This document shows positions 1,743-36,439 of a DNA stretch of 40,783 nt, piece after piece. A program made the position numbers and the translations under genes. Source of the DNA: Microcaldota archaeon. Lineage in GTDB: Archaea; Micrarchaeota; Micrarchaeia; Micrarchaeales; Micrarchaeaceae. The stretch lies in assembly GCA_021807115.1 (NCBI GenBank), contig JAKAPJ010000010.1, positions 1-40,783 of the forward strand, read 5' to 3'. The notes beneath the pieces were generated by a model that worked only from the letters and a program-made list of their open reading frames with translations, searched no databases and was not told where the DNA came from. Positions within the stretch are counted from its first letter, which is position 1; every line of letters begins with the position of its first letter.

Positions 1743-2828
1743 TTAGCCTATCATTTCTAAGTTGCTGAACGCAGAGGATGCCTCCTTCCTATCCTCCAAC
1801 TTGCCCAGGATGCTTGCACCCTTCACTCCGGTCACTATGGCAACGATCTCTATCTGGTCGTCATAGCCGGGTATGAGCCTGGCACCCCACTTTATGTTGG
1901 CCTTGGAATCCATGCGGTCGGTTATTATCTCACCAGCCTTGATGGCGTCGCCTATGGTGAGGGAAGCACCTCCGGAAATGTGTATGAGCGCGCCGCTTGC
2001 GCCCTCCATGTCAACATCAAGCAGCTTGTTCTTCAGCACGCCGTCGGATGCAATGTGTACCTTGTCGTTGCCCTTGCCCTGCCCGACAGCTATGAAACCT
2101 ACATCGCCGCCGCCTAGGATTGACCTGACATCGGCAAAGTCTATGTTGATCAGACTCGGCTGGGTTATGGTCCATACCAGACCGCCTATGGCCTTCGCAA
2201 GCACTTCATCTGCGAGCGCGAACGCCTCATTCATTGGCAGGTTCGGAGCCAGCTTGACGAGCCTGTTGTTGTCCAGTATTATGACACTGTCGCAGAACTT
2301 CCTCAACTGCTGGATTCCCTCCTCGGCCTTGGTCTTCCTGATTCGCTCAAGGTCGAATGGATAAGTCACCATTGCGACAACTATTGCACCCTGTTCCTTC
2401 GCAATCTGCGCCGCTACCTTGACAGAGCCAGTACCGGTGCCGCCGCCCATTCCTGCACACAGAAACACGAGCTGTGCACCGTTAAGGGATTCTTCAATCA
2501 TGTGCCTGTCAACCTCCGCTGCCTTGGCACCCACAGTAGGGTCGCCTCCGGCGCCTAGGCCCTTTGTTATGCTCCTTCCTATCAGTACCTTCTTTATGCG
2601 CTCGTCGATGATCTTGAAGTGCTGCGCGTCGGTGTTGACTGCAACGAACTCCGTGCCCTTGACCCCAGCCTTTAGGAGCCTGTTCACTATGTTGTTGCCT
2701 GCCCCGCCGAAACCAGCCGTCACAATCTTGATTGTAGCGGAGCTGAATTCGTCATCGGTTCCTACCTTAGACTGTCCCAAAACTTCGTTCACTAGGTCGC
2801 CCATTTTATCGCCTTTACTTGTCGCCAA
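1743..2828 (-). CDS. ftsZ: FtsZ-family cell division GTPase (paralog B)
   Basis: TAGFGGAGNNIVNRL, NTDAQHF, GLGAGGDPTVGAKAAE, GMGGGTGTGS, NIDFADVRSIL motifs. Confidence 0.96.
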   Translation of the reverse strand: MATSKGDKMGDLVNEVLGQSKVGTDDEFSSATIKIVTAGFGGAGNNIVNRLLKAGVKGTEFVAVNTDAQHFKIIDERIKKVLIGRSITKGLGAGGDPTVGAKAAEVDRHMIEESLNGAQLVFLCAGMGGGTGTGSVKVAAQIAKEQGAIVVAMVTYPFDLERIRKTKAEEGIQQLRKFCDSVIILDNNRLVKLAPNLPMNEAFALADEVLAKAIGGLVWTITQPSLINIDFADVRSILGGGDVGFIAVGQGKGNDKVHIASDGVLKNKLLDVDMEGASGALIHISGGASLTIGDAIKAGEIITDRMDSKANIKWGARLIPGYDDQIEIVAIVTGVKGASILGKLEDRKEASSAFSNLEMIG

Positions 2829-7105: not shown

Positions 7106-8716
7106 ATGCAAACGCGATATGTAGTGGTGCTGGGCTCGCTGCTGAGCGGGCTTGGGAAAGGGATAGTGTCTTCTTCTATAGCAAAGATTCTCTCGTTGTA
7201 CGGCTACAATGCTATGCCCCTGAAGTTTGACGGCTACTTGAATTACGATTGCGGCACAATGAACCCGTTCAGGCACGGTGAGGTGTTCGTGCTGGAAGAC
7301 GGGGGGGAGGTCGACATGGACTTCGGCACTTATGAGAGGTTCATGGACAGGAACATGAAATCGTCATTCTCGCTCACAGGGGGCAAGGTGATGAATGATG
7401 TGATATCCATGGAGAGAAAAGGGGAGTTCCTAGGCCAGGATGTCCAGATAATACCGCAGGTGACTGATTACCTGATAAAGAGGATAGAATCGCTATCCCA
7501 AAAGGAGCATCTTGATGTGCTCATAATAGAGGTCGGCGGCACCGTAGGCGACATAGAAAACGGTTATTTCGTGGAAGCGATGAGGCAGCTTGGCACCCTG
7601 AGAAAGACTGTTTTTATCGACGTCACAATGGTGCCGGAGCTTGAGGCTGTGGGTGAACAGAAGACAAAGCCTACGCAGATAGGGCTTAGGAGCTTGAGGC
7701 AGGACGGCATACAACCAGACTTCATGATATGCAGGACGACAAGGGCGTTGGAGGATAGGGCGAGAGGCAAGATAGCCCTTTTCGCCAACCTCCCGCCCGA
7801 AGCGGTGATAGACGACCATGATGTACCGTCCATCTATGACATGCCTGAGCTGCTGATGCGGCAGAAGCTTGATAAAATGCTTATAGGGCGGCTTGGGCTA
7901 GAAAGGCGCACAATCAACCGCAAGGCGCTCAACGAGTGGAAGAGGTGCCTGCATCCGGGCGGAAGCAAGAACAAACCGGTAGTGAGCGTGGCCATAGTTG
8001 GAAAGTACATAAAGCTGCATGATGCGTATGCCAGCGTGAAGGAATCTCTTTCGCATGCGGCTATGAAGAACAACGTGGAGCTCAAAATAAACTGGGTGGA
8101 GTCGGAGTATTTCGAGGGTAAGGACGCGGAGAGGCACATAGGGACGCTTGCAGACAGCGATTGCGTGCTAGTCCCGGGGGGATTCGGCAAACGTGGGATA
8201 GAGGGCATGATAAGGGCGATACAGTACGCGCGGACCAGCAAGAAACCCTACCTGGGGCTGTGCTTGGGCATGCAGCTCATGGTGGTCGAATACGCGAGAA
8301 ACGTGTGCAAACTTGATGATGCGAACTCAACGGAATTCGGCAAAACGCCGCACAATGTCATAGACCTTCTTGAAGGGCAGCGTGGCCTTTCTGAGAAGGG
8401 CGCTACGATGAGGCTTGGGGCTGCGCAGATAAAGGTGATGGGTGGCACGCTTGCGCACAGCATCTACGGCAGCGGCGTAATATCGGAAAGGCACAGACAC
8501 AGATACGAGCTCAACAACAAGTTCAGGGGAGTGCTGGAGAGGGGCGGGCTGGTTATAAGCGCGACCACTACGGACGGACAGCTGGCCGAAATGGTGGAGT
8601 GGAGGGGGCAGTTCGGAATCGGGATACAGGCGCATCCGGAATTCAAGTCCAGACCTGAGCACCCCGCGCCGCTTTTCGAGGCGTTTATACGGGATGCCGC
8701 GGCAGGGGGCGCGTAG
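7106..8716 (+). CDS. pyrG: CTP synthase
   Basis: VLGSLLSGLGKGIVSSSIAKIL, KFDGYLNYDCGTMNPFRHGEVFVLEDGGEVDMDFGTYERF, glutaminase LGLCLGMQ and HPEFKSRP. Confidence 0.98.
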   Translation: MQTRYVVVLGSLLSGLGKGIVSSSIAKILSLYGYNAMPLKFDGYLNYDCGTMNPFRHGEVFVLEDGGEVDMDFGTYERFMDRNMKSSFSLTGGKVMNDVISMERKGEFLGQDVQIIPQVTDYLIKRIESLSQKEHLDVLIIEVGGTVGDIENGYFVEAMRQLGTLRKTVFIDVTMVPELEAVGEQKTKPTQIGLRSLRQDGIQPDFMICRTTRALEDRARGKIALFANLPPEAVIDDHDVPSIYDMPELLMRQKLDKMLIGRLGLERRTINRKALNEWKRCLHPGGSKNKPVVSVAIVGKYIKLHDAYASVKESLSHAAMKNNVELKINWVESEYFEGKDAERHIGTLADSDCVLVPGGFGKRGIEGMIRAIQYARTSKKPYLGLCLGMQLMVVEYARNVCKLDDANSTEFGKTPHNVIDLLEGQRGLSEKGATMRLGAAQIKVMGGTLAHSIYGSGVISERHRHRYELNNKFRGVLERGGLVISATTTDGQLAEMVEWRGQFGIGIQAHPEFKSRPEHPAPLFEAFIRDAAAGGA

Positions 8717-14453: not shown

Positions 14454-14945
14454 CTATGTGCGCAGCATGGTTTTATGCATCGCGCCTTCAATGTCAACCA
14501 TTACCGCGTTCAACCTATGCACATCCGAGTAGAAAACCATAACAGGGCCATCGGCAGATCGGTTCATGACATCCACCATTGGATGCTTGGCGTAATCCTC
14601 AATAAGCACATTCACTTTTTTGACCGTGGCGTCGTAGACTACACTAAGTACCTTGACGATGTCATCTGCGGACGGGGTGCTACGCATTCGTGCAACGATT
14701 TCGGCGCTCACGGGCACCCTTACATCTCCGACTGCCACACTGTGGTACACGGCCTCATTTGCACGCATATCCACGCTAACCTTGAACGCATTCCATCTCG
14801 GCCATTTTACCCTATCGAAGGACAACTCTACGGTGTCACCGTTTCCGCCAACGGATGTGATTGAAACGCAATACTTTTTACCGAGGACTGGCTGCTGTGC
14901 GCCTGTGCTACTATCCTGCATGCCGTCTGACGTTTTTCTTTCCAT
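14454..14945 (-). CDS. Hypothetical protein (163 aa)
   Basis: Full-length ORF packed against the Cgi121-like gene. Confidence 0.65.
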   Translation of the reverse strand: MERKTSDGMQDSSTGAQQPVLGKKYCVSITSVGGNGDTVELSFDRVKWPRWNAFKVSVDMRANEAVYHSVAVGDVRVPVSAEIVARMRSTPSADDIVKVLSVVYDATVKKVNVLIEDYAKHPMVDVMNRSADGPVMVFYSDVHRLNAVMVDIEGAMHKTMLRT

Positions 14946-18438: not shown

Positions 18439-21400
18439 ATGCATAAATATCTGGCCAATTTGAGTACCATAACGGGCAAGTGGGTAGCAATGCCAGAGTG
18501 GAACATAATAGACCATGTAGGACCCCGGAGGATAAGGCAGAAACTTGACTGCGACAATGAGACTGCCGATGTGATATTCTCTTACATAAAGGCGCAATCG
18601 CGCCAAGGGAAAGAGTCCTTACATGATGCGTGGCGCAGGATACACGGAGTGCTATACACGATGCGTAGACAGGAAGACACGATAGGTAAGATTTACACTG
18701 CGCTCAAGATTGAAGGTTGCGCTGAAGGGCTGCTGGACAAGGCGACTTTGGGATTTGTAAGGGACCTGGGAGAGGAGCGCGGCAGTTACCTTGACGCTAT
18801 AATCGCCACTAGGGGCGCAAAGGCACTTACGGGGGAGAAGGTAATAGCGTTCGCGTACGATGGCATGTATCAGAGAACCATAGGACAGTATTTCAGAACT
18901 GTAGCTAGCACGGGCAATGTTGCGGCGATGACGAGCGACACGATGCTTGGCTTCCTCAAGAAACTAAACGCCGCGACGCCTGACGACTACAAGATGGGCG
19001 GCACGCACGGCGGTACAAAAGGTGAGGCGGCCATGAAGTACCTAGAGGTGCTACACGATGCCGCGATGCCTGGCACATTGCTGGAAAGGAGGGTAATGGA
19101 CCAAGCTGAGTTAATATGCAGGCTAGGGGCCAGGTCGGAATGGTATTTCCGTGCCATACTTGCGACAAACCGGGTGGATGCATTGACGTCTGGAGGGTCG
19201 GCGCTCGGGACGGTGGCCAGTGTAGGCAGTGAAACTGCGGGATTACTGCTCAAGAGCATAGCAGACACCAAGGACATTGGAGCGCTTACTGACCGGAGAA
19301 TGCAGGATTTCATAGGATGGCTAGGCAGCGCAGAGAACAGAAAGGAATACCTCTACGCAGTCTCAAGGGTCGGCGGTGATGGGTCGCTGACATCGGATAG
19401 GGTGATCGAGTTCGCAAAGGCGGTGGGCGGAGCTAACGCCGCATCCTACTTCGCCACCATATCCAACATAGGAGACTTTAACATCTTGACAAGCGACGCC
19501 GTATTAAGCAATGCGGGGTTCTTTGGGTCTGTCGGACCGCATGGCGCCGCGAAGCTGTTCACTGCACTCAAGGCCAAGTCAAATCAGGACATTCTCCTTG
19601 CCCCTGCAGTAAGGGAGCTTGCATATGCGCTCGGGGAGGCGTTCGGGGACTGTGTTGAAACGCTCAACGCTAAGGGCATGATGAGGCTGCTGGATGATAG
19701 TAGCCTAACAAATGCACTAAGGACTGTCGCAGGCCTTGACAATGGAGTGGCGAATGGCGCCGTGGCGGCATACACCAAGGCGATTGTCTCTGCAGTGTGC
19801 AGGGGGGGCGCATCCGACACACTGAAAGGTAGCGGCTTCCTTTCGCTTATCTCATCTATAGAACAACACCAGGTAAGGATGAAGATACTAGACGCAGTAT
19901 CGGACGGTGCGGCGCTGTCGACGGTTATGGATGCGTCTTTGGCAAGTGCTGCAGGATTTATAAACCGCCTTGAACCGGAGGTGGGCGACAGATACCTTGA
20001 TGCGGTGATAAAAACTGCCCAACTGCAGAAACTATCTGGCGAAGATGCAAGGTCGTTCATACTTTCACTAAGCACCGCAAACAGGCTCCAGTACTTGGAT
20101 GACATAATAGCCGCAAATGGCTCAGACGTGCTTTTGGATAGCACCACTATGGCTTCGCTATCCAAGCTCTCAGGGATGGGTGACGAGGTACTGGGCAGGT
20201 ACCTCAAGGTCGCGGGAATGCGCAACCGCTCTGCGCTGCTGAGTGCTCCGGTTCTTGCAATGATCACAGAGCACATGACACCAGAGTCTGCGACCCAATA
20301 CCTTGGCGTGCTGGCTAAGACCAAATCGCCAGAGACTATCCTGAGCCCGGAGTTCGCTGCCTTCTTCTCTTCCCTTAAACCAGAGATTGCCAGTATATAC
20401 GCCACATTGCTCAGAGAGGAGCACGAATATCACATGAGATACTATGCCAAAACCAACAAGGATGCGGTGATGAAGTTCGTGCTGGTTGAAGGAGGGGTGA
20501 TGGGTACCTCAGGATTCATGAATGAGATAGGACCGCGTGGCGCGGAAGCGTTCCTCAGGCTAATTACGTACGCAAACCATACAACTAAGGAGACCCCTAA
20601 GATCATCGGAAAGAAGGTGCTGGATTTTGCCCTTTCGATAGGAGGGAACATTGCAGCTGAGTACTTCAACGCCCTCAAGGACGCCACAACGAACGATGAC
20701 GGTGTAACCAACACATATGCGTGGGCCAGATTAACCAACCCTGCCGTCTTAGGAAACAGCGACTTCATAAAGTCGCTGGGGACAAATGGAGCAAGAAAGT
20801 ACTTCGATGCTGCGGCAAAAATGAAGAAGACGGAGATGATGGCAAATGGAAAGATAATGGATTCCGCGAGGGCACTGGGGGAATACGCTGACCTGTATTT
20901 CACTGCTATGCCCAAGCTTGAATATTGGGATACCCTCACATCAGACAAGACGCTTTCGGCCATGCCACTGGTAGGGCAGGTGGGGGCAAGAGATGCCATA
21001 CTCGCCTATCTGGAGACCCTCATGGAAAAAGGTAACGTAGACACGCTAACGAGCGAGGAAGTTATTGGAGCAGTACGCAGGCTTGGAGGGGCGGGAGCGG
21101 AAACGATAAAGGCTTACCTGGCCAGGTACACAGCCGTGGAAAACAGGAGCGAGTTGCTTGACCCGGCGCTGTTGGACTACTTACGCCACCTCGGGCACGC
21201 AAGGTCTGCAGAGGCGGCAGAGTTGGTGTCAACGCTCATAGATGACAAAAAGGTTCTGCAGTTCGTCAACGGGCTGCTCCGCAAGGAGGGCGAGCGCATT
21301 AAGCTGCTCGACGACAGAGCGCTGGAGCTGTTCAAATACTACGGCATGCTGCATCAGGCCGGCGTAGATGCGGAGAACGAAACTGTCTACATGGTGAGGA

Positions 21401-23118
21401 AGGGGAACAAAGCCAGGATAACCAAGCATTACAGGAGCGTGAAGAATGGCGCGGGCAATTTGAGCATAGATGGACTTGCCGTTGCCTTGGATTTTGTCAG
21501 CGCCAAAATGCCAAGTCTGGGCTTTACTGCGGAACAGAGAATGGAAGCCTTGGACAAGCTACTGCAGTTTGCCGCAATAAGTCAGAATCTGTCTAGTGAT
21601 GCATTCCACAGAGTGAGCGGCGTGTTTTACAGGAGGGATTTGAGCGACGATGAATTGAGAAATAGATACCCTGAGATAATGGAGTATGTGGACAGGCATG
21701 TTGGATATGCCGCAGGGCATCCGGAGTTCAAAGCCGCGCTCTCAAAAGATAAGGTTATGGATCTGTTGCGGGAGTATTTGGGAACAGAGGAACCAAACAT
21801 ACAGACCGTGAAGGTAGAGAAGCAGCAGGTCAAGAAGGGCAAGGACGCGGTAATAAGGGAGAAGTACGAGAGTTTGTTCATGTCAGACCTTAGCAGGACA
21901 GTGGAGCGCTCGAGGTACGAGGCCTTGATGGACGCGCTGTCGGTACACAGGCACATACTGGCAAGGATACTTGACGAGGACAACCCAAAAGCCGCATACG
22001 AGGTGCCAGACATGATGAAACCTGCAATAGAGGGATACACTCGACTTGAGGCTAACAGGGGTGTGATGAGGGACATGCTTGCGAAATACTACACCGATGG
22101 ACCGGAGAAGACCCAAAAGTGGCTTATGGGCCTGAATGGGAACACAAGTGTAATTGCTGAGATGATGGCAAGGGGCACGGACGTTGATGCGATGCAGACC
22201 TTCCATGTGTCGTATGACTCGGTGGCGGCGCAGAAACTCTCTAGGAAATGGGCAGAGAGAAGCGAACAGATATTCCAGGGCATAAAGGAGGAGCTTGCGA
22301 GGCTGGGCATAGGAGACATAAGCGCGCTCGGGGTGGACGGGGGCGGTTCCATCTCCGAGACTGCAGAGGCAGTAGCCAAGAAGCTCAGGGAAATGGCAGC
22401 GGAGGGGAAACTGACGAAAGATGCCAAAAGGGTAGTGGATGGCATAACCAACGACGCCAACGCACTGAAGAGCTTCGTGGGGCAGATGCAGTTGGCCGGT
22501 GAGGCGCACAGGATAGAGTTCGCCGTGCCGCAGGATCCAATGAAGAGGATACAGATGGGTGTGGGTTTTGAATCCTGCCTGGACATAGTGAACGGGTCGA
22601 ACAATTACGGTGCAGTAGCGAGGACCGTAGATGCAAACAACATTGTGATTTTCGCCTCGGAGGGCGACGACGAGGAAAGAGTGATAGGCAGAGTATCCCT
22701 CTTCGAGACCGACAAGGGCTTGATGGTGAACTCCAAATTCTACGAGAACACCACCTATGACCTGTTCAACCCTGGCGGCGGGTGGATAAATGCATTGGTA
22801 GAACTTGCCGCACGCTCCGGCAGGGAACTAATAGTACCTACACGCTTCATAAAGAGTCCGGAAGCAATAAAAACACTTGATGCGTACGGCTTCAAGAAAG
22901 AGAACATTGAAGTGAAAGTAAGCAGGGCGCAATGCACTAGCGTATATTCGGACCTGGGCTCGCAGGACCTTGCAGACACAGAAAGATACGGGTATGAGGT
23001 GGAAGCCTATGTACTTGGCACAAAGAAAGCTAGGGAAGCATCGGTAGGCGCCGCAAATGTGCAGGAAGCAGCCGAAGGTGCGTCGGGAAGCATCCGTCCT
23101 GTCGGTCTTAGGACCTGA
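18439..23118 (+). CDS. Giant (1559 aa) repeat protein, predicted alpha-solenoid, with a distinct C-terminal domain
   Basis: Many imperfect repeats of about 33-36 aa with the phrase LTSDxVLxF...LGxxxAxxYFxAI...; start codon uncertain. Confidence 0.85.
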   Translation: MHKYLANLSTITGKWVAMPEWNIIDHVGPRRIRQKLDCDNETADVIFSYIKAQSRQGKESLHDAWRRIHGVLYTMRRQEDTIGKIYTALKIEGCAEGLLDKATLGFVRDLGEERGSYLDAIIATRGAKALTGEKVIAFAYDGMYQRTIGQYFRTVASTGNVAAMTSDTMLGFLKKLNAATPDDYKMGGTHGGTKGEAAMKYLEVLHDAAMPGTLLERRVMDQAELICRLGARSEWYFRAILATNRVDALTSGGSALGTVASVGSETAGLLLKSIADTKDIGALTDRRMQDFIGWLGSAENRKEYLYAVSRVGGDGSLTSDRVIEFAKAVGGANAASYFATISNIGDFNILTSDAVLSNAGFFGSVGPHGAAKLFTALKAKSNQDILLAPAVRELAYALGEAFGDCVETLNAKGMMRLLDDSSLTNALRTVAGLDNGVANGAVAAYTKAIVSAVCRGGASDTLKGSGFLSLISSIEQHQVRMKILDAVSDGAALSTVMDASLASAAGFINRLEPEVGDRYLDAVIKTAQLQKLSGEDARSFILSLSTANRLQYLDDIIAANGSDVLLDSTTMASLSKLSGMGDEVLGRYLKVAGMRNRSALLSAPVLAMITEHMTPESATQYLGVLAKTKSPETILSPEFAAFFSSLKPEIASIYATLLREEHEYHMRYYAKTNKDAVMKFVLVEGGVMGTSGFMNEIGPRGAEAFLRLITYANHTTKETPKIIGKKVLDFALSIGGNIAAEYFNALKDATTNDDGVTNTYAWARLTNPAVLGNSDFIKSLGTNGARKYFDAAAKMKKTEMMANGKIMDSARALGEYADLYFTAMPKLEYWDTLTSDKTLSAMPLVGQVGARDAILAYLETLMEKGNVDTLTSEEVIGAVRRLGGAGAETIKAYLARYTAVENRSELLDPALLDYLRHLGHARSAEAAELVSTLIDDKKVLQFVNGLLRKEGERIKLLDDRALELFKYYGMLHQAGVDAENETVYMVRKGNKARITKHYRSVKNGAGNLSIDGLAVALDFVSAKMPSLGFTAEQRMEALDKLLQFAAISQNLSSDAFHRVSGVFYRRDLSDDELRNRYPEIMEYVDRHVGYAAGHPEFKAALSKDKVMDLLREYLGTEEPNIQTVKVEKQQVKKGKDAVIREKYESLFMSDLSRTVERSRYEALMDALSVHRHILARILDEDNPKAAYEVPDMMKPAIEGYTRLEANRGVMRDMLAKYYTDGPEKTQKWLMGLNGNTSVIAEMMARGTDVDAMQTFHVSYDSVAAQKLSRKWAERSEQIFQGIKEELARLGIGDISALGVDGGGSISETAEAVAKKLREMAAEGKLTKDAKRVVDGITNDANALKSFVGQMQLAGEAHRIEFAVPQDPMKRIQMGVGFESCLDIVNGSNNYGAVARTVDANNIVIFASEGDDEERVIGRVSLFETDKGLMVNSKFYENTTYDLFNPGGGWINALVELAARSGRELIVPTRFIKSPEAIKTLDAYGFKKENIEVKVSRAQCTSVYSDLGSQDLADTERYGYEVEAYVLGTKKAREASVGAANVQEAAEGASGSIRPVGLRT

Positions 23119-23210: not shown

Positions 23211-24209
23211 TTATTTGCCGAGGATTGCTGACGATACCCAGGCAGCTATTCCGCCGCCCTTGCCGTCTGCATGCTTTTCCTCGCCAGAAGGAGCGGCGAC
23301 ATGAACCGATGATTCCTCAAATATTCCCCGCACTATTGACGCTGCAGTCCTTATCGCAGCCATATCCTGCCGTATTATTTCCGCGATTTTGGGCCTATTT
23401 AGCATGTCACGTATGGATCGAGCCGGATCAAACCCGTTGTGCGCGAGAACTGCAAGTGCAAGCATGCCGCCTATCGCGTGCTTCCTGTCGCCTTTCACGC
23501 CGCCGTTGCGCAAATACGCACGCTGGCGTATGTCTTCGATTACGGACATGTTTGGATCTGCCATCTCGAAGACCGCTATGACTGCCTTCATCGCTTCCAC
23601 GCCTCTGTTTTTCTTGTGAAAAGCGTAGTCAGTTATAAGGGAATCCTCTATTTCGGATTTGCGGCGAACCGTATCCCATCCGGTTCTTGTTACATAGGAT
23701 GCGGCAAAAAGCATAGCGCATCCCTCAGAAGCCCAGCTGTTGAACAACTTGGTGGACTTTTTGGCGCCATTTCTGCCGCTGGCGGCAGGAGGTGCCTGTT
23801 CTGCACCATGCTGACCGTACTCAACGGCGTACATGTGCTGTAGTGCGTGTGCGTACTCATGTGCGAGCAGCCTATCGCTGAAGCGCTTTCGGGACATTTC
23901 AAGAGCGAAGTTAACCTTCTCCGCTTCGATGTTGTTCATGTCAAGTATTGCAACAATACCATCCTGGACGAGCTCCCCCCTCACATTGCCTATCTTCACA
24001 GTTATTGCGCCATCGCGCCAGAAGCCGGCCTTGGTCTTGTAGCGTGGATCTTCCCTTACAAGGCTCCTTTCAGTCCTGAGCTTAAGCGGAGGGAATTGGT
24101 ATGCATAGCCCATGCTTGCCGAGTATGCCTCTATTCTTGCCGCGGCTGCGGCGATGCTTGCCGCGTCCTTCATGCGCATTTCCCTGCTCGACGTGATTGG
24201 CATGACCAT
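23211..24209 (-). CDS. Putative zinc metalloprotease (HExxH), 332 aa
   Basis: LLAHEYAHALQHMYAVEYGQHGAEQ contains HEYAH with a helical context. Confidence 0.65.
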   Translation of the reverse strand: MVMPITSSREMRMKDAASIAAAAARIEAYSASMGYAYQFPPLKLRTERSLVREDPRYKTKAGFWRDGAITVKIGNVRGELVQDGIVAILDMNNIEAEKVNFALEMSRKRFSDRLLAHEYAHALQHMYAVEYGQHGAEQAPPAASGRNGAKKSTKLFNSWASEGCAMLFAASYVTRTGWDTVRRKSEIEDSLITDYAFHKKNRGVEAMKAVIAVFEMADPNMSVIEDIRQRAYLRNGGVKGDRKHAIGGMLALAVLAHNGFDPARSIRDMLNRPKIAEIIRQDMAAIRTAASIVRGIFEESSVHVAAPSGEEKHADGKGGGIAAWVSSAILGK

Positions 24210-25071: not shown

Positions 25072-25815
25072 ATGGTAACTACACCACACAGACATGAGTA
25101 CAAAGTTAAGGTAAAGGACATATTGGCTGGGGCTACGATTGACCAGATGCGCCAGTGCAATGAGGGCGGGGCACACCCTACTACGATAGTAAAGGTAGGA
25201 AGGGGCGACGATACGGAGAAACTCGCCGAGCGGTCTAAGACAGTACCGAGCCCGGAGATGGCGGCGCGGTGCGGCCCTGAAGCTTATGTGCTTAAGTATT
25301 ACCACAGGATACCTGCAAAGATGACATTCACAAGCACACCCGACTCCCCCGTGCAGTTCGACATGAAGGTGTATGTACGCAGCAAGTACGATACCAGGGG
25401 TCACGTGAAACTGACGCTCAAGAACGAAGATGGCAGCACAATGACTACAGTGAGGGTGCATTCCGTTCCGGGAGACGAGGCGTGCAAGTCAGTAAACAAG
25501 CTTTCGCGCTCGTTGGAAGCGGCCGGAGTCACTGGTCCCGAGATAAAAGGCATAATGCTTGATGCCTTGAGTAGGGCGAAGGGCCAGCTGGAGAAGCGCA
25601 AGATTGATGCAATGGATGGCGAACCCAGGACATATACAGGCAGGGGCATAAGAGTAAACTACAGGCTGGAGCAAGCCGACGTGGCAGCCATTGCGGCCAC
25701 AATAGACAGGTCTATTGCTGCAGTCAACAGCATAACTGAAGCAGTAACCGGTGCGGACGTTAACATTAGGAAGGTAACTGCGAACGTCAGGGTCCTGGTG
25801 AAAAAGCCGCTATAA
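25072..25815 (+). CDS. Hypothetical protein (247 aa)
   Basis: Full-length ORF with upstream TATA-like AT-rich region and a downstream hairpin terminator. Confidence 0.75.
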   Translation: MVTTPHRHEYKVKVKDILAGATIDQMRQCNEGGAHPTTIVKVGRGDDTEKLAERSKTVPSPEMAARCGPEAYVLKYYHRIPAKMTFTSTPDSPVQFDMKVYVRSKYDTRGHVKLTLKNEDGSTMTTVRVHSVPGDEACKSVNKLSRSLEAAGVTGPEIKGIMLDALSRAKGQLEKRKIDAMDGEPRTYTGRGIRVNYRLEQADVAAIAATIDRSIAAVNSITEAVTGADVNIRKVTANVRVLVKKPL

Positions 25816-25943: not shown

Positions 25944-27326
25944 TCATGGCACCGCATCGGCCGTCTCGCTCTCCGATATAACGTCATCGCGCATGATGCC
26001 GACTGCCGTCCCTGCCCTGGTAAATACCAAGTACGACGCGAGCGCGACCGCGAACGAGACGAAATAGCTCACATCCGCACCACCGAGCATGGTTGCCAGC
26101 GCACCTTCGTACTGGATCCCGTACGAAGTCAGGTTCATGAAAGGCACCGATACTGCCAGGCCAATTACATAGGAGGCTATCGGGCCCCACAACACGTCCC
26201 TGTTTCTTTCCACTCCGCGGGTTATGTGATTGACAAAGAACGCACCGACCATTATCCCTATCCACGGGGTTATCCAATAGTCCAGCGTAAGCAAGAAGTT
26301 CTGGTAGAACAGCGCGAAGTCGCCAGCGCCGAGCAGCGCAAGCGCGAAGCCAACCGCCCCTGCCGCGGCCACCGCATGCCATCTCTTAATTCTCCCGTAC
26401 ACTATCTGCGCAGACAGGGAGTTGGTATATAGGTTGAGGGAATTGGCAGTTATGGACCCTAGTATTATGGCGCCAAGGGCCAGCATGGAGTATGGTCCGG
26501 CTGCCTGCGCCAGCGCCGCTATGGGGTTTATCGCAGAGGAGCCTACGCTTATGTACACCAGGGTGCCTATGAGCTCCACGCCCGTGCATGCTATGGCGCC
26601 CGCGGCCATGGCGTACAGCGCTATCCTCAGCGGACTTGTGCCCTCTGGGAGGTACCTGGAGTAATCGCTGGCGTATGGGGACCAGCTCATGAGGTAGGAG
26701 AATACGGCGGCCACCACAAGGGCAAACATGGAGGCGGTTGGCGAAGATGAGGCCTGGTATGCACCGAGGTTGCCAAGTGCGCCTTCATATGCAAGTATGC
26801 CCACCGCAATGAACATCAAACACAGCGCGGCAGCCATCAAGATCTCGAACTTGTGTATCATGTCGTGACCGTAGACCGCAAGGATTGACTGCACAAGGAC
26901 GAGAATGAGCGCCCCGGCATAGAAAGGCAGGCCGAGCGCAAGCTGGAGCGCATATCCCCCGAGGACTATGTTTACGGTGAACCATCCTACAGTGCTTATC
27001 CAGTTAGCCACTGCAAATGGCGCATTTCCCTTCCTGCCGAAATACGCCCTTGATATCATCATCTGGGGGTAGCCGAACTTCGGCCCCATTGCGGCCATCA
27101 GCCCCAGAAGCAGGCCGCCTAGTATGTTGCCGACCAGGACGGCCAGGACTATGTAGTTCAGAGGCAGGCCGTAAAGTATTGTCCCAAGAGCATAGTCAGC
27201 TATGGTCAGGTTTGCTGCAAGCCACAGCGTGAACGTTATGAAAGGCCTGCCGTGCCTGTGCTTTTTGTCGACGTGTTCTATCCCAAGTTCCTCAATAGGC
27301 ATTGAATCACCCATTTTAATCGTCAT
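25944..27326 (-). CDS. NCS1-family nucleobase/cation symporter (cytosine permease-like)
   Basis: 12-TM profile; NILGGLLLGLMAAMGPKFGYPQMMISRAYFGRKGN, SYLMSWSPYASDYSRYLPEGTSP, LDYWITPWIGIM motifs. Confidence 0.9.
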   Translation of the reverse strand: MTIKMGDSMPIEELGIEHVDKKHRHGRPFITFTLWLAANLTIADYALGTILYGLPLNYIVLAVLVGNILGGLLLGLMAAMGPKFGYPQMMISRAYFGRKGNAPFAVANWISTVGWFTVNIVLGGYALQLALGLPFYAGALILVLVQSILAVYGHDMIHKFEILMAAALCLMFIAVGILAYEGALGNLGAYQASSSPTASMFALVVAAVFSYLMSWSPYASDYSRYLPEGTSPLRIALYAMAAGAIACTGVELIGTLVYISVGSSAINPIAALAQAAGPYSMLALGAIILGSITANSLNLYTNSLSAQIVYGRIKRWHAVAAAGAVGFALALLGAGDFALFYQNFLLTLDYWITPWIGIMVGAFFVNHITRGVERNRDVLWGPIASYVIGLAVSVPFMNLTSYGIQYEGALATMLGGADVSYFVSFAVALASYLVFTRAGTAVGIMRDDVISESETADAVP

Positions 27327-28783
27327 GCATGTTCAGTCTGGCGCGACAGCACCCTTTCCGGAGGCGCCTGCCGCGACCTGAGCAGCGCCTCAGCCTTCCG
27401 CCTTTCGGATAAAAAACCGTTAGCTCGGCTGCGTATCTCATCGAGGGAGTATTCTTGCAGGATTTTGCCATAGCGAAACACCTCGACCAGCTGGTCTGCC
27501 CCATCGTGTGACATGGAGACAGTTTCAAATGACCCATCCGTCCTGAGCACGAGCTTGAGCCGGCCCGCCTTGGAGTTCTTTCCAGGGTCTGTGACGGGTT
27601 GCTTGAACACGTCTCGCTCCTGCCCGTCCACGGTGACGCTTGAGCACTTGAACGCGAATTTCTGGGTGTCCCTGTGGAGCTTCTGCAGCAATGCGCCGCC
27701 CATTCCGAACGCTACGTTGTCCGCAGACCAACCAGCAGCCTCAAGCGCAGACATTACCCTTTCGGCTGACTCGTAATCCACTCCGTCGCCCTGTATCACG
27801 CGTATCTGGGATGGCAGCACCAAGTACCCCTTGTCGTTCCTGCTTGTACCGAACTTGGCCCCCAGTATGTTCAGCACCTCTACCACGACCTTCTCAGGGT
27901 TGCCGGAGTCTGGACGCACCACCACTGTGCCATCGCGACCTGCCACTTTTTCCTTGAGCTTGTCGCCCCATATCTCGCCGCATGCCTTGAATATGTCGTA
28001 GGAATCCGATACGACTGCTACAGCGCCCTTTGGGAACTGCTTGAGCATGTTCTCCATGGCCAACGCCTCCCCCTGGCGCCCCCATGAGGTTATGGTGGAA
28101 TGCTCAGCGGCAGGTATGGAGAACCCGGCCATGTCCGCGCCGTAGTACTGCCTGAGCAGAAGCAGGCCCACAATCGTATCAGTACCCATGAAGCTTACTA
28201 GGTGCGCCGCGCCCCCTATAGCTGCAGATTCCACTGAAGATACGCCCCTGAAGCCGAAGTCGTGGAGCTTGAAATCCACAAGACCGGGATCCCCGGTCCT
28301 GTCCAGGTAGTCCATAATCTGCCTCTTCATGTTCATCGACAGTGTGGCCACGGTTGTGGGATACCACACCTGCACCAGCAGCGTCTCGAGGTAGTTCGTA
28401 AGCCAGAAGCACTTAGGGTCCGTGTTCTCTATTGTCATCAGGACGTTGTGCGTAGGGACCACCGACCCCTCCGGGACCGCCTTTATGCTGATTGGCAGTC
28501 TGCCGCCATGCTCCCGTAGTATGTACTCCCACCCCTCCCTGTTGAAGAGGGATTTGTTGCCTAGGTGCTTCTCCACTATCATTTCCGCGGTGTCTATCGT
28601 CTCCTGGGTAACTACCACACCCTCAAGGTGCTTCTTTAGCATGTACTGCAGCCCGAAGAAAAGGACCTCTGGGTACTTGCCACCGCGTGACTCAAAGTAC
28701 GAGTAGACCTTTTCGGTGCCGGGCGGGTACTGTCTCCAGTGTGTAACCTTGTAGCTGTCGGTAAGCAGGAGTATGTTATCCAT
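27323..28783 (-). CDS. nadV: Nicotinamide phosphoribosyltransferase
   Basis: LLTDSYKVTHWRQYPPGTEKVYSYFESRGG, FHDFGFRG-type HDFGFRGVSS, GAAHLVSFMGTDT, PAAEHSTITSWG, VVRPDSGNP, GDGVDYES; start at MDNILLL assumed (track ORF starts at 28831). Confidence 0.95.
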   Translation of the reverse strand: MDNILLLTDSYKVTHWRQYPPGTEKVYSYFESRGGKYPEVLFFGLQYMLKKHLEGVVVTQETIDTAEMIVEKHLGNKSLFNREGWEYILREHGGRLPISIKAVPEGSVVPTHNVLMTIENTDPKCFWLTNYLETLLVQVWYPTTVATLSMNMKRQIMDYLDRTGDPGLVDFKLHDFGFRGVSSVESAAIGGAAHLVSFMGTDTIVGLLLLRQYYGADMAGFSIPAAEHSTITSWGRQGEALAMENMLKQFPKGAVAVVSDSYDIFKACGEIWGDKLKEKVAGRDGTVVVRPDSGNPEKVVVEVLNILGAKFGTSRNDKGYLVLPSQIRVIQGDGVDYESAERVMSALEAAGWSADNVAFGMGGALLQKLHRDTQKFAFKCSSVTVDGQERDVFKQPVTDPGKNSKAGRLKLVLRTDGSFETVSMSHDGADQLVEVFRYGKILQEYSLDEIRSRANGFLSERRKAEALLRSRQAPPERVLSRQTEHA

Positions 28784-28848
28784 ATCACCGCTCCGCCCGG
28801 GTGCAGTGTGAACCTCGCTATCTCCTGCCATGGAAGTACCGATACGGA

Positions 28849-30156: not shown

Positions 30157-30690
30157 CTATTTCACGTAGAGCTTCTCGAACTCCTTTGCAAGCAGAGAAA
30201 GATACTCAGGCAGCATCTCTATTGACTGTCCGGCTATGGCCCTTGGCTCAATCACCCCGCCCGCGCCCTCGAATTTCGCAAAATCCTCGAACACCTCGGC
30301 CATCTTCTGCTGGTTCATCCCGCTCTTCATGAGTATCAGCAGTATCTTCGCCGTGGCATATGTCTCGGTGAGCATGCCGGTGAGCATTATCCTCTCGGCG
30401 TCGCCGACCTTCTCGAGATCCTCTGACTCTATGAACTTGTTGAGCCACCTGGCTGACAGCTCGAATATGCTGGCCATGGATGTCTGCTTTCTAAGTGCCT
30501 GCCTTGCAGTTACTGCGATCTCGCTGCGGAGATCGTTGTTGGTAGTGGTGGCGGCGAGGTAGCTGCCTATGGAGCCTATATCAGTGGCCAGCATCCCGGA
30601 AAGGGCCATGAAAAGGTATTCGTAGCCGGTGGGATGCCTGCGCCCCTCTGCCTGGTCTGTGGCCATTGCGCTGCACCTATACACTACCAC
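30157..30690 (-). CDS. Hypothetical helical protein (177 aa), edge of the island
   Basis: Full-length ORF with the same orientation and density as the downstream paralog cluster. Confidence 0.65.
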   Translation of the reverse strand: MVVYRCSAMATDQAEGRRHPTGYEYLFMALSGMLATDIGSIGSYLAATTTNNDLRSEIAVTARQALRKQTSMASIFELSARWLNKFIESEDLEKVGDAERIMLTGMLTETYATAKILLILMKSGMNQQKMAEVFEDFAKFEGAGGVIEPRAIAGQSIEMLPEYLSLLAKEFEKLYVK

Positions 30691-30741
30691 TTGCCAAAGT
30701 AAACTATATAAAGACGCGTGGTACCGTTCGGTATGCGGGCG

Positions 30742-31380
30742 TCACTGTGCCGCAGTCTTTGCAAGCTCTGGGCCTACTGACATCATTATCAGCGCCCTGC
30801 CGAGGTTTGGTGCTAGCCCCTCTACGTTCTTTATGGATTTGAGCATGCTCTCGACCCGATCCGTGAAGTCGCTTGCAAAGGGATTCTTGGAGAGGTAGTC
30901 GGCATCCTTCGCTATCTCGTTGAACGCGGATATCGTTGCTCTTAGCGAAGCCACTGCCACGTAAACAAAGCCGGGCGTGTTGCCTGTGTATCCGAAGTCA
31001 GACCCCCAGTAGTTTTTCCAGTACCATGGCAGGAAGTTCTTTATCTCTTCGGGGCTGTAGCGCAGCCACGCCTCGCCAGACAGCACCACGGTGTTTAGTC
31101 TCTTGACTAGGTCAGAGCGTGTTATATACTCGACTACCTCGGCACGCCTGGACGGGGACGGACCGCCATCGACCCATGATTCTGGGATGTCGGCAAACGT
31201 CTTGAGAGGGCCTACCAGGTTCAGGCCTTTCTTCAGCTCCCACTCCAGCACATCAGTGCTGTGTAGGAATCCAGTCTTCATGAATGAGGCAGCCCTCTCC
31301 TCCTTTTTCAGGTTTGACTCTTTTGTTACCATCATATCGCCGCACGCCGCCTGTTTATGAGGCGATTTCGCCTCGCCCAT
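30742..31380 (-). CDS. ESWVDGG-family paralog 1
   Basis: KTFADIPESWVDGGPSPSRRAEVVEY...LPWYWKNYWG; start at MGEAKSP (track ORF 30742..31422). Confidence 0.75.
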   Translation of the reverse strand: MGEAKSPHKQAACGDMMVTKESNLKKEERAASFMKTGFLHSTDVLEWELKKGLNLVGPLKTFADIPESWVDGGPSPSRRAEVVEYITRSDLVKRLNTVVLSGEAWLRYSPEEIKNFLPWYWKNYWGSDFGYTGNTPGFVYVAVASLRATISAFNEIAKDADYLSKNPFASDFTDRVESMLKSIKNVEGLAPNLGRALIMMSVGPELAKTAAQ

Positions 31381-31387
31381 CGCGCCC

Positions 31388-32519
31388 TCATGGCGCCACC
31401 GGACCAACGTCCAGGAACACAAGCCTGTCGACCGAGTTATAGATTGAGCTCGCTGCTTTATATATGTTTATGAGCACATCCTCCGCGACATCGTTTTTAC
31501 CTGCCGCGACGGAGTGCCGGAGCTTCGGATATTTGGCTATGCTGCCCTCGAGCGCCCTCAGGTCCCCCCAGCATCCTGCCGGTGTTCGCGACCGCATCCT
31601 TTACGATCCCATACGAAGCTGACGCCGCGTTTTGACCCACACCGAGGGACGTGATCCAGTGCGACTGCACTGATGCAGCTATCGCGGCGTAGCCATTTGA
31701 AAGAAATTTCTCAGTCTTGGCTATGGACCTTGATATTGAGCGCGCCAGGTTCCGGTTCGACACTGCAGCTGCCATGGCGTCATACCTGGATTGATCTGCG
31801 TTCTTGCCATCAATCCATGCCCCGAGCATATCATCGAAATTGCGCATCTCCTTTAGCCTGCCGGACGTGTCCAGAGCGGAATTGTACAGCGAGATGGTAT
31901 CGCCCATTACGCCGTCGCTGGGGGCCTTGCCGCGCCGGCTAACGGTGCTGTGCAGCGGCGCCGATACCCTGCTGCCTGCGAATGCGCAGTGCTTCACCTC
32001 CCCTCTTATGGCCGCGATTGTGGCGAGCAGCCGGAAGGAGTCCGTCCTCGCGTCAAGGGCCGAGTACAGCTGGGCATCGCTAATAGCGGTGGGCCTGATT
32101 GCCATGCGCAATGTGACAGTGTACAGTATCCCAATCAGAAGTGAGATGCCGTTCGCCGGATCCTTTGCTATCGCGTCTATCTTTTCCTGCACCACCGGGT
32201 TGTGCTCGTACGCCGTGGAGAACACGCATGACTTTTGCGCGTTGGCGCTCATATCAGTGCCGCAGGATTCCGAAGTCGCTATCCTGAAGCCTGTCGTATT
32301 TCCGCCAACACCCACATTTCCGTACAGCACCATGCCGTGCGGTGTGAGTTCAAGCTTTGCAGAAAGAGATTCACCCTTGAGCGCTATATGTAGATCCTGC
32401 GGTTTGCGGGCATGGCGGCGGCTGCTTTGGTACACTGGTTCCCACCGGTGCGTCAGCCCTTGCGCAGCCGTGCTGCATCTGCAGCGCTGTTTATTTCCTG
32501 GCCAAGCGAAGACAGCCAC
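31388..32519 (-). pseudogene. ESWVDGG-family paralog 2 with a frameshift (ORFs 31497..32519 and 31388..31597)
   Basis: MRNFDDMLGAWIDGKNADQSRYDAMAAAV...QSHWITS in one frame; the C-terminal IYNSVDRLVFLDVGPVAP continues in another frame past a G6 run. The 5' end is uncertain. Confidence 0.6.
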
Positions 32520-33073
32520 ATCATCATGTAGCCGAGGTTGAAGCCTAGTTCCGTTGTGCGGGAAAGAAGGTCTATTGTCTTATCGTGGACGGAAAGAACC
32601 TCTGGATCCGTTGAAATCTCACGGAGCTCCTTTAGGTCGCTGAGCATCTTAGTGACCAACCCTACCTTATATTCATACTTCTTCTGCTTCTCATCCATCA
32701 TTTGCGGATCGCCCTTGGTCACCCGCTCCCAATGGGGCATGAGCATATTCCTTATGGCCTTGACATCCATGTCAATCCATGCCTGCAGCGTGTTTATGCA
32801 CCGTTCCAGCGATACCTTGAAACCCTCGGAATTTATCACTGCGGCTATTGCCTCGTTGCTCGCGGTCTGCACCACTGTTACGTCGCCAAGCCGGCTGGTC
32901 TTGCCAGGCGGGACCGGCACGAACTCTATCATGTTCTGTAGCGCAACTGATGCGAGATGCAACTGCTCTGCCTCATGGCCCATGTCTATCATGGGCTGTA
33001 CTAGAGGTTCTGGAGTGCGATGCCTGGGCTTGTTGTTCCAGCCGCCGCGCTCTCCTCGTTTATCCTTGTTCAT
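32453..33073 (-). CDS. ESWVDGG-family divergent paralog 3 (206 aa)
   Basis: AAVINSEGFKVSLERCINTLQAWIDMDVKAIRNMLMPHWERVTKGD aligns with the middle/HW segment of the paralogs. Confidence 0.65.
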   Translation of the reverse strand: MNKDKRGERGGWNNKPRHRTPEPLVQPMIDMGHEAEQLHLASVALQNMIEFVPVPPGKTSRLGDVTVVQTASNEAIAAVINSEGFKVSLERCINTLQAWIDMDVKAIRNMLMPHWERVTKGDPQMMDEKQKKYEYKVGLVTKMLSDLKELREISTDPEVLSVHDKTIDLLSRTTELGFNLGYMMMWLSSLGQEINSAADAARLRKG

Positions 33074-33076
33074 ATA

Positions 33077-33604
33077 TTACACCACATCGCTAAACCCAAA
33101 TTTCTTGCGTCTTCGCAACATACTCCTGAGTCCGCCTGCCTGCTCTGTTGCCACGGCGTGCCTCACTGCATCGCTGAGGTCTGGGCTGCAGTTTGGCGCA
33201 TTTACTGCAAGCACCATGTCCGAAGCGAAGGCCCTGAGCCTCTCCTCCGAGTCCTTTATCCCATTGAATTGTACTTGGACCTGTTCGCATGGCAGTTGAA
33301 CGTAGTAGGAGCGTAAAACCTTCATACGCCCGACTGAGGATGTGTACAGCAGCTGCAACTGTACATCCCCGGATGTTTCCACCCTGAGCTTAAAGCTTTC
33401 CCATACCCCCGGTATGGACCCTACGGGATTCGACATCCTGAACGTACCTATCATGTCGAGCCTTCCGGGGCCAACCATAGCATTCGCAATAAGGCGCTCT
33501 CCGTCAAGGAAGAATGTCTCGCTATGGGCAATCCCTGCTTGGCTGCCCATTATATGTCTCGCAAGGGGCACGGGCAAGGTAACTGTTGGGGGCATCAATC
33601 TCAC
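33077..33604 (-). CDS. Hypothetical beta-rich protein (175 aa) in the island
   Basis: Full-length ORF 3 nt upstream of paralog 3. Confidence 0.6.
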   Translation of the reverse strand: MRLMPPTVTLPVPLARHIMGSQAGIAHSETFFLDGERLIANAMVGPGRLDMIGTFRMSNPVGSIPGVWESFKLRVETSGDVQLQLLYTSSVGRMKVLRSYYVQLPCEQVQVQFNGIKDSEERLRAFASDMVLAVNAPNCSPDLSDAVRHAVATEQAGGLRSMLRRRKKFGFSDVV

Positions 33605-33804
33605 TTGCTAGCACGAAGTTGTGGTATGGACATAATATTTATGCGTTTTGATTTCCTTGACCTGCACCTAAGGCATACCCTCCATTTCAGCTTGGTTTTC
33701 TGCTCCTTTAGCTTGTCTATGCCGCTTGCCTTTAGCACTGCTCCGTCTGTGTCCCTGCCTGAGAGGTGCACATATGTCTCGGTCATGTTGCTGTCAGGGG
33801 GTAT
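33601..33804 (-). pseudogene. C-terminal relic of a XerC/D-like tyrosine recombinase
   Basis: NMTETYVHLSGRDTDGAVLKASGIDKLKEQ...RVCLRCRSRKS matches the archaeal integrase tail with catalytic Tyr (YxHLSGRDxDxAxLKxxGI...CxxC); no R/HxxR part present. Confidence 0.7.
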
Positions 33805-34110
33805 TTAGGCGGGTAAAAGCACCCATACCCAGGTATCCGGCGATGAGTTTGTGGCGTTATTCTCAATCCATGCCCGTAGCATGGTACCGGTTGCGTTTGC
33901 GCCTGTAGAGAATTCCACATTGCTCCAATTAGAATTTATTTGCGGGATTGAGATGCTGTTTATAGTGAGCATTTGCTGGAATGGCTCCGGCGCGTGGAGC
34001 CGCTAGCCATTGCTTATTACTATAGGTATCGAGGCCAACGTTTGGGAGTATGCGAACATCTGGGACAAAACAATCGCAACGAATGTAAACAGCAGCAGTC
34101 TGCAATGCAT
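33805..34110 (-). pseudogene. Signal-peptide plus DUF2341-like fragment with an in-frame TAG
   Basis: MHCRLLLFTFVAIVLSQMFAYSQTLASIPIVISNG*RLHAPEPFQQMLTINSISIPQINSNWSNVEFSTGANATGTMLRAWIENNATNSSPDTWVWVLLPA* in one frame; TAG at 34003-34005. Confidence 0.65.
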
Positions 34111-34250
34111 TTGCCCTCCCCGATTTATTTCAAAACGCGCTCATAAAGGTTATTTGCTTCTCCTATTTGGTCCTGCGGCAGTATTTATAATAAGTGCTTT
34201 TGTGCAATTTGGCTGTTTGGATTTCCGGTAAGGCCGGGCAAATAGCCATA

Positions 34251-34305
34251 CGTATAAACTCAGCCATCTGTGTATAAAGTCGGCAGTCTGCGTATAAAGT
34301 AGGCC
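34251..34305. repeat. 20-bp tandem repeat, about 2.75 copies, each with a GTATAAA/TTTATAC core
   Basis: cgtataaactcagccatctg / tgtataaagtcggcagtctg / cgtataaagtaggcc. Confidence 0.75.
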
Positions 34306-34429
34306 AAAAACCTGACTTTGTACACAAAGCAGATATGAGCTACAGGTGCACTATTGCAATGCATTACGCTGGTACCCGCTCATGCATCCACTGCCCGTGG
34401 CGGCACGGCGCGAGGCAACGGCGCTACCT

Positions 34430-35035
34430 TCAGGTCCGCCTCGGGACGGGCTGCACCCTGTGCGCCAATGAAGACAGTCTTGGAGCTGCATCTGCTACGA
34501 CCCTCTGCACGTCTCCAAGCATTCCAAGCATCTCATCAACCCTATCCCTGAAGTCTGGCGAATCCAGATTTTCAGGCAGGTCCATATACGGCCGCAGCTC
34601 CTCAAGCTTTTTGTATGCGGACTCGGCAGCTATCCTGGTCAGATCGTATAGAGACAGCACCTGCCGCACTGTGTTTTCAGTGGCGTTAAAAACAGATACT
34701 TGAGACGCGGCTATGGACGCCTTGGCACTATCCTTATCTATTGCCAACCACGCCCCTACCGCATCGATGGCGCTGCCGACAGCGTTCTTCATGTCCAAGT
34801 ATGCCATGCGCCCCGTAAGCTGATCGTAGCGGTACTGCTGCGCACCTCCCTCTAGCCAATGCGTGGTTATGTCGCCGAATTTCCCTATGGCCCTGATCGG
34901 CTCAATGATGCTAAAGAGCATGGCGCTGGCCTTCCGGGCCAGTGCCGATATCTCTGTGCCGGTGGCGTACTGGGTTGGCGGTACATCCTTGCCAATGCCC
35001 GGGATTGCGTCCTTTTCTGGCATTCGCAGCACCAT
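34430..35035 (-). CDS. ESWVDGG-family paralog 4
   Basis: IGKFGDITTHWLEGGAQQYRYDQLTGRMAYLDMKNAVGSAIDAVGAWL. Confidence 0.7.
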   Translation of the reverse strand: MVLRMPEKDAIPGIGKDVPPTQYATGTEISALARKASAMLFSIIEPIRAIGKFGDITTHWLEGGAQQYRYDQLTGRMAYLDMKNAVGSAIDAVGAWLAIDKDSAKASIAASQVSVFNATENTVRQVLSLYDLTRIAAESAYKKLEELRPYMDLPENLDSPDFRDRVDEMLGMLGDVQRVVADAAPRLSSLAHRVQPVPRRT

Positions 35036-35041
35036 TCAGCA

Positions 35042-35668
35042 CTATTGCTTATCGAAAGCAGTAGGGGCCCTTGCGAGCCGATAGAGGGATCCGCAGAGTG
35101 GAGCGAGCTGCTCTGCAAGCACGGCTGCGTGCTTCAGGGTTTCAGGCAGAACCTTGTCAACTATGTCACGCATATTAGGGTCTCCTTCCGCAGCAAGTAG
35201 CGCCGCAACAGAGGCGCGGAACTCCTTCATTGCCGGCAGGGATTCGTTGATGAGTGCAGTGGCATCATCCACAAGGGTGGGCACCGCGGATATCTTCTGC
35301 GTCATCCCCCTATACATGCCAGTGTAGTGCCTAAGCCAGTGCGATGGAAATAGCATCTTCATCTCATCGCCGTCATTTTTTGCCCATTGCTCTCCCTGGG
35401 ATATTGCGGAATCCATGGCTACCCATCTCTTGGCATCCTTCAGCATGGCAAACAGCTGCCCATAGCGCCCCTCCGCAGGGCCGCCGTCGACCCAGGACTC
35501 CACTATGTCGTTGAACGTGAGTATTTCCTTTGCGCGCGAATTGGCTTCCCACATGTTGTCTGCAAGGTTCTTTGTCCTGCTCACCACGCCTTCCTTCCTG
35601 GCCAGCTGGATCTCCTGCACGAAGTCGCGGTACTCCGCACCCGGATACTGTGACTTTATCATCGCCAT
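35042..35668 (-). CDS. ESWVDGG-family paralog 5
   Basis: ILTFNDIVESWVDGGPAEGRYGQLFAMLKDAKRWVAMDSAISQGEQW...PSHWLRHY. Confidence 0.8.
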   Translation of the reverse strand: MAMIKSQYPGAEYRDFVQEIQLARKEGVVSRTKNLADNMWEANSRAKEILTFNDIVESWVDGGPAEGRYGQLFAMLKDAKRWVAMDSAISQGEQWAKNDGDEMKMLFPSHWLRHYTGMYRGMTQKISAVPTLVDDATALINESLPAMKEFRASVAALLAAEGDPNMRDIVDKVLPETLKHAAVLAEQLAPLCGSLYRLARAPTAFDKQ

Positions 35669-35740
35669 GTCAGTTGCACACCGTCTTGTATTGTATTCAG
35701 CCCATTATTTATTACATTGAGCCAAATCCGCACGGATATT

Positions 35741-36364
35741 CTAGCCGTAGATCCTGAGCAGGTTGTGCTCTATCGTAGCCGGGGCGCGGGGACCGCGGTA
35801 TAGCATCATTAGGTTCCTAGCTCCATTGTATATCTGCAGTATCGCATCGCCGGACCGCTCGATTGCGGCCTGCAGTTCCGCGTCGATCCTGCTGGTGTCG
35901 TACGGGACCGCGGAGCACTCCAGCATTCCTCCTATGCTCAGCCTTATCGCCTTTAGGGCCGCCAGGGATTTGACGATGTTGGATGCAGCCTTGCCAATTA
36001 TAGGGGCAAGTTTTGCAGCCTCGGCCGGCGTTGCGTTCTGCTCATTTATCCAGTGCGCCGCTATCACGGCGGGGGCGCCGTCCGGGCCCGACCGGACCCA
36101 TTGCTCTGACAGCCTTATAGCATCGTCGATCGCGCTGGTGAACTTATCGTTCTTGAGCATTGCGAAGAGCTCGTCGTATCGCACCGCAGAGGAGCCGCCG
36201 TCGACCCAGGACTCCACTATGTCATTGAACTTGACAAGGCGGTGAAGTGACCCGTATGCCTGGAATAGAGCGCTGCCTAGCACTATTGTGCTGTCGCGGA
36301 ACGCATCGCGCCTGAGGCTGTACTCAGTGTGGCCCTGTGACCTCTTGGCTTCTACCTCGCCCAT
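35741..36364 (-). CDS. ESWVDGG-family paralog 6
   Basis: LVKFNDIVESWVDGGSSAVRYDELFAMLKNDKFTSAIDDAIRLSEQWV...AAHWINEQ; start placed at MGEVEAKR because a TATA-like tttaaat abuts the track's ATG. Confidence 0.8.
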   Translation of the reverse strand: MGEVEAKRSQGHTEYSLRRDAFRDSTIVLGSALFQAYGSLHRLVKFNDIVESWVDGGSSAVRYDELFAMLKNDKFTSAIDDAIRLSEQWVRSGPDGAPAVIAAHWINEQNATPAEAAKLAPIIGKAASNIVKSLAALKAIRLSIGGMLECSAVPYDTSRIDAELQAAIERSGDAILQIYNGARNLMMLYRGPRAPATIEHNLLRIYG

Positions 36365-36439
36365 CTCAACACACGCTGATTCTACCCATTGTGCGCAACT
36401 CATATTTAAACCAGCCTGCCTGGGGCGGCTGCCTGATAT

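Follow-up and report, generated by a model that had tools for sequence, protein, structure and literature searches.

The closest described counterparts of the locus examined here are the dark matter islands of archaeal genomes, in which lineage-specific paralogs occur in gene clusters, as for arCOG10027/10066/10028 of Thermococcus (Makarova et al., 2014; PMC4158269). The window, by which we mean the whole stretch of DNA that was analysed, is a contig (C43) of 40,783 bp from a genome of 1.18 Mb in 44 contigs that is 86% complete; the organism is uncultured, its assignment to the DPANN (Micrarchaeota) is supported, and among the genes of the window is that of an archaeal 23S rRNA, in full length. 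Within it, the region 30157-36403 resembles the described islands in its clustering of narrow, fast-evolving genes and in its integrase debris. This cluster is narrowly spread, being found in 2 of the 301 phylum genomes, and of no recognisable function. Where a dark matter island allows no more than one well-known gene in any five consecutive genes, the interval has, apart from orphans, only the remnant of a recombinase gene and a broken surface-protein gene. The locus is of a kind already known, the archaeal dark matter island with a lineage-specific paralog cluster, and what is new is the protein family itself. Whereas the most abundant families of the described islands are mainly secreted or membrane proteins, the present family is predicted to be soluble and all-helical, and none of the families in Table 2 of that study, as judged by their descriptions, fits it. 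Islands have also been reported for Ca. Mancarchaeum acidiphilum Mia14 (Golyshina et al., 2017; PMC5498576), which appears to belong to the same micrarchaeal family as the present host. The likeness in this case consists of a XerD-type integrase, the absence of an arCOG for about half of the genes and the position of one end of an island close to the 23S rRNA gene. However, the Mia14 island carries metal-fitness genes and other recognisable cargo, none of which is present in this island, and no credible member of the family was found in the genome that we infer to be that of Mia14 (G021).

An earlier note on this DNA had proposed six paralogs on the minus strand, and all of them are present, five being intact and one carrying a one-base frameshift. 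Members 1 (P0001; 35741-36403) and 2 (P0002; 35042-35668) carry FNDIVESWVDGG, member 3 (P0003; 34430-35035) carries FGDITTHWLEGG, and member 5 (P0005; 30742-31380) carries FADIPESWVDGG. Member 4 (P0004; 32453-33073) has an ortholog-like copy in another species (G003), and member 6 (31388-32435) is fused behind an unrelated N-terminal stretch. The ordered motif set described for these proteins does mark a common family, but it is looser than was claimed: RYD is found only in the members at 35741, 34430 and 31388-32519, the HW dipeptide is not present in those at 34430 or 30742, and the ESWVDGG motif (motif 1) is missing from the member at 32453 and from its copy in the other species. Similarly, the view of the whole interval 30157-36403 as an island built from this family holds for the six members, but two to three unrelated orphans and pseudogene debris lie between them, and the gene at the low end is not a member. 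This last gene, the helical orphan P0006 (30157-30690, minus strand), adjoins the cluster and was rejected as a family member by profile tests, hhalign and alignment against shuffled sequences.

The relationship among the members was assessed by a leave-one-out design, which avoids circularity in that the profile is built from the remaining members and the left-out protein is then scored. In one run the left-out protein competed with all ORFs in the window and in some further loci, and in another with its own reversal and 300 shuffles. All nine known members were recovered with scores of 31.7-102 bits, where no reversed sequence exceeded 1.8 bits and no shuffle 10.2 bits; in the run with the ORFs, the E values of the left-out members ranged from 6e-31 to 6e-8 (Z=5000). 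These proteins are divergent paralogs of one family, as had been proposed, and their similarity is not confined to the motif, since every member still scored when 25 alignment columns around ESWVDGG were masked, with E values of 5e-20 to 1e-3. In profile tests of separate regions the signal came from the motif together with the whole of the sequence C-terminal to it, and the N-terminal region alone gave no family signal. The leave-one-out, masked and regional tests together indicate that the ESWVDGG family is real, that the motif is only one part of it and that its N-terminus is variable. The family is also unrecognised, in agreement with the earlier note, as Pfam, NCBIfam, PHROGs, PADLOC and PDB sequences gave no useful match: the best E value of any member against Pfam, NCBIfam and PHROGs was 0.017, which is far short of the curated cut-off, and PADLOC returned nothing below E 0.05.

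Members 1 and 2 have near-identical DNA around motif 1 (35429-35520 and 36143-36234), with 39 of 41 nt identical in the core, and the overall identity of their proteins is only 29%. Identical synonymous codons (10 of 11 versus 15 of 38; Fisher p 0.003, in a comparison chosen after the tract had been seen) are consistent with a possible short gene-conversion tract. The identity of the motif codons was also considered as a DNA signal of the whole family, and this was rejected because it is confined to these two members.

Eight copies of the family are present in this genome and one in the same-genus species G003. The two copies outside the window are tandem neighbours (18640-19176 and 19256-19855) in the end region of contig C21, at a second locus that adjoins housekeeping genes. 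The G003 copy (C8:17494-18084) is motif-less and of the P0004 type, and in the phylogenetic tree it groups with P0004 with 83/93 support, tree support for the family being otherwise weak. This pairing suggests that at least two sub-families probably existed before the species split. The family is present in 2 of the 14 species of the genus, and no credible further member was found in the rest of the 85 genomes of the micrarchaeal family or the 301 of the phylum. Profile matches in G042, G078, G254 and other genomes are partial, with E values above 1e-5, and were discounted as chance matches; that in G042 sits in a coiled-coil-like protein. Scans of public genome and viral contigs with peptide patterns (conserved peptides and the P0001/P0002 pair) found nothing. 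With many copies here, one in G003 and none elsewhere among the phylum genomes, the distribution is that of a lineage-specific expansion, as the earlier note had suggested.

The fold of the family was predicted with AlphaFold2 from alignments of the window members only. The models led by P0001 (pLDDT 74, pTM 0.69) and by P0005 (pLDDT 78, pTM 0.73) show the same order of elements: an extended helical arm at the N-terminus is followed by the ESWVDGG loop, then by three helices of lesser length and finally by two long ones at the C-terminus. As the alignments have six rows, confidence in this fold is moderate. The agreement of models from two different members supports the proposal of a helical protein, predicted here to be an all-helical bundle. 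No hydrophobic segment of transmembrane strength was detected in the members (best 19-residue mean at most 1.34), and the proteins of this family are predicted to be soluble bundles of about 180-220 aa. Foldseek retrieved only generic helical bundles, none of them with E below 0.001, and the family models had no match among viral structures. The predicted topology is generically like that of up-and-down helical bundles (talin rod, FAT, rice PBI1 and designed proteins; TM about 0.4-0.5), but sequence similarity to these is lacking (E >0.001) and the likeness is one of a common fold type only.

TATA-like boxes are found 35-38 nt upstream of four starts, those of member 1, member 2, P0007 and the 30157 gene (P0006). 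P0007 (33077-33604, minus strand) is an orphan from outside the family, and 3 nt separate its end from member 4. The boxes of member 1 (TTTAAATA; 36403-36410, minus strand) and of the 30157 gene (TTTATATA; 30705-30712) match the consensus in full; those of member 2 (TAAATAAT; 35704-35711) and P0007 (TAAATATT; 33634-33641) are weaker, as they match 6 of 8 consensus positions, which is common in the background. Because the annotated ATG of member 1 (36403) lies inside its TATA box, the start of this gene is probably the ATG at 36364, 38 nt after the box. The box of P0007 likewise suggests a start at ATG 33595, and the 30157 gene probably starts at 30666. Taken with the intergenic gaps, the boxes divide the cluster into what appear, from the sequence, to be four TATA-led units, consisting of member 1, members 2-3, P0007 followed by members 4, 6 and 5, and the 30157 gene. 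Operon spacing within the cluster is 3-17 nt, and the gaps of a few nucleotides that had been remarked upon are stop-to-start distances of 7 nt between members 6 and 5 (31388/31380) and 6 nt between members 2 and 3 (35042/35035). Co-transcription of some neighbours is supported by this spacing and by the TATA-like boxes.

Member 6 is comprised of an N-terminal stretch (about 31914-32435), the family core (31572-31913) and a tail in another frame (31388-31563). Its N-terminal part of about 170 aa is unrelated to the family and, according to codon-bias scores, is in frame with the family domain, the upstream 170 codons having the bias of coding DNA in that same frame. The frameshift falls in a run of six G residues (31564-31569), after which another frame carries both the signal of coding DNA and the similarity to the family, and the tail adds about 11 bits to the profile score. 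The shift may be an error, a mutation or a programmed one.

Orphan companions of the family are of three kinds: P0007 before member 4, the in-frame fusion in member 6, and a HELGH protein of 433 aa encoded 4 nt upstream of the C21 copy. The HELGH protein was rejected as a conserved partner, since its relatives in G015 and G047 are not accompanied by a family member, and its link to the family may be due to chance. Two other orphans of the window (14454-14945, minus strand; 25072-25815, plus strand) have by eye a beta-then-helix layout. A single partner family consisting of these two, P0007 and the N-terminal part of member 6 was suggested by eye and then rejected by shuffles and hhalign, in which the two proved unrelated to each other and to P0007.

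The reading that we tentatively favour, its chance being in our view a little below even, is that of a lineage-restricted soluble helical family within a dark matter island, which arose by old serial duplication and whose members would most likely serve inside the cell as binding or scaffold subunits for different orphan partners. In one micrarchaeal genus, a small helical protein would have been multiplied by old serial tandem duplication, with retention of the copies, inside the island and at the site of a former integrating element. The copies would apparently be expressed from small operons; their conserved core, made up of the ESWVDGG loop, the helices that bear W and HW and the pair of long C-terminal helices, would serve the fold or a contact between subunits, and the N-terminal helix and the surfaces, which vary, would meet different partners, candidates for which are the orphan proteins encoded directly upstream or fused in frame. 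Expression, a cytoplasmic binding or scaffold role and specificity for partners are what we infer, and the role is a best guess based upon the fold type, the lack of enzyme or membrane signatures, the operon neighbours and the one fusion; it has to be set against the generic nature of the structural matches to the models and companions that are not demonstrably interrelated.

The stretch 34430-33600, which holds gene debris, bears upon a different account, in which an integrated virus or plasmid would have brought in the copies as cargo or as structural genes and left them behind when its integrase and the rest decayed. We regard this as unlikely, although not far-fetched. The debris includes a tyrosine recombinase remnant (33661-33795, minus strand), a XerC/D-type C-terminus of about 45 aa with the catalytic-tyrosine motif TYVHLSGRD, which is 49-61% identical to the catalytic-tyrosine region of integrases of about 400 aa from several genus, family and order relatives; a full-length relative belongs to PF00589, and a tblastn search of plasmids gave no match. 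Next to it is a broken surface-protein gene of low coding score (33808-34112, minus strand), with a signal-peptide-like start and a weak DUF2341-like match in different frames. A tandem repeat of 20 bp in 2.7 copies (CGTATAAAGTCGGCAATCTG; 34251-34304), TATA-like in content, adjoins the integrase debris. Besides the remnant, the patchy occurrence (2 of 14 species) and the gene order speak for a decayed element. The divergent pair of NAPRT and PhoU-like genes is kept in G008, G010, G001 and G002, and in the first two it is followed by aIF1A and aIF2-beta, whereas here aIF1A is on contig C19, which places the cluster at a break in gene order just past the PhoU-like gene; no clean empty site was found. 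Mobile-element cargo had been suggested in the earlier note and the integrase remnant hints at it, but the composition is native, with GC3 of 0.65-0.70 and a similar codon-usage index in members and neighbours. The cluster contains no intact integrase or transposase and no virus or plasmid hallmark gene, the window has no tRNA, and no long direct repeat that could be an attachment repeat was found flanking the cluster. Viral contigs and viral structures were also without a match, and the second locus on C21 lies beside housekeeping genes.

A conflict or defence system, in which the copies would be diversifying recognition proteins directed against viruses, rivals or the euryarchaeal host, is improbable. 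A multi-copy, fast-diverging, patchy and clustered family, with possible gene conversion around motif 1 of members 1 and 2, would be compatible with it. However, no nuclease, toxin, pore or transmembrane part that could act as an effector is encoded in the cluster, and PADLOC gave no match, so that the earlier suggestion of such a system could not be substantiated; the members are too divergent for positive selection to be measured. Similarly low in probability is a single lineage-specific structural assembly (cytoskeletal, envelope-associated or storage) with the copies as its subunits, and the multi-subunit assembly raised in the earlier note could likewise not be substantiated: neighbouring co-transcribed paralogs with a helical-bundle fold would suit it, but relatives in the same genus do without the family, and G003 has a single copy, near a contig end. 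A modular adaptor system invented in this lineage, in which each of the diverged helical bundles would be encoded with, or fused to, an orphan partner of its own (including the C21 HExxH protein) and would serve regulated binding or regulated proteolysis during conflict or attachment to a host, is very unlikely.

The lineage-restricted family favoured above is a clear case of a new protein family that has arisen and expanded in one micrarchaeal genus of small genome size. Its nine members and reproducible fold prediction make cloning and testing feasible, and a family profile would annotate genes that are otherwise blank; the family alone gives no pointer to a new mechanism.

Some other genes were also of interest. 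The NAPRT-like (nicotinate phosphoribosyltransferase-like) gene (27323-28831, minus strand) has its nearest relatives in Candidatus Micrarchaeota bins (69-74% identity), and outside the Micrarchaeota the closest are bacterial (Kapaibacterium, Ignavibacteria; about 65%), for which a transfer between bacteria and the micrarchaeal lineage is the likely explanation, to judge from these identities. Two adjoining genes (676-1698 and 1743-2828, minus strand) were identified by eye as FtsZ-like paralogs, and a protein of 1,559 aa (18439-23118, plus strand), with repeats of about 40 residues by eye, has no significant Pfam, NCBIfam or PHROG match. Orphans with HExxH motifs (HEYAH, HELGH, HEYGH) that belong to no Pfam family are encoded in the window (23211-24209, minus strand) and at two other loci (L008:1138-2619 and 7341-8642; L029:4845-5417). 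The two L008 proteins are paralogs situated on either side of a surface protein of 1,431 aa, and their relatives are patchy, G015 and G047 being the only ones of 60 genomes to contain any.
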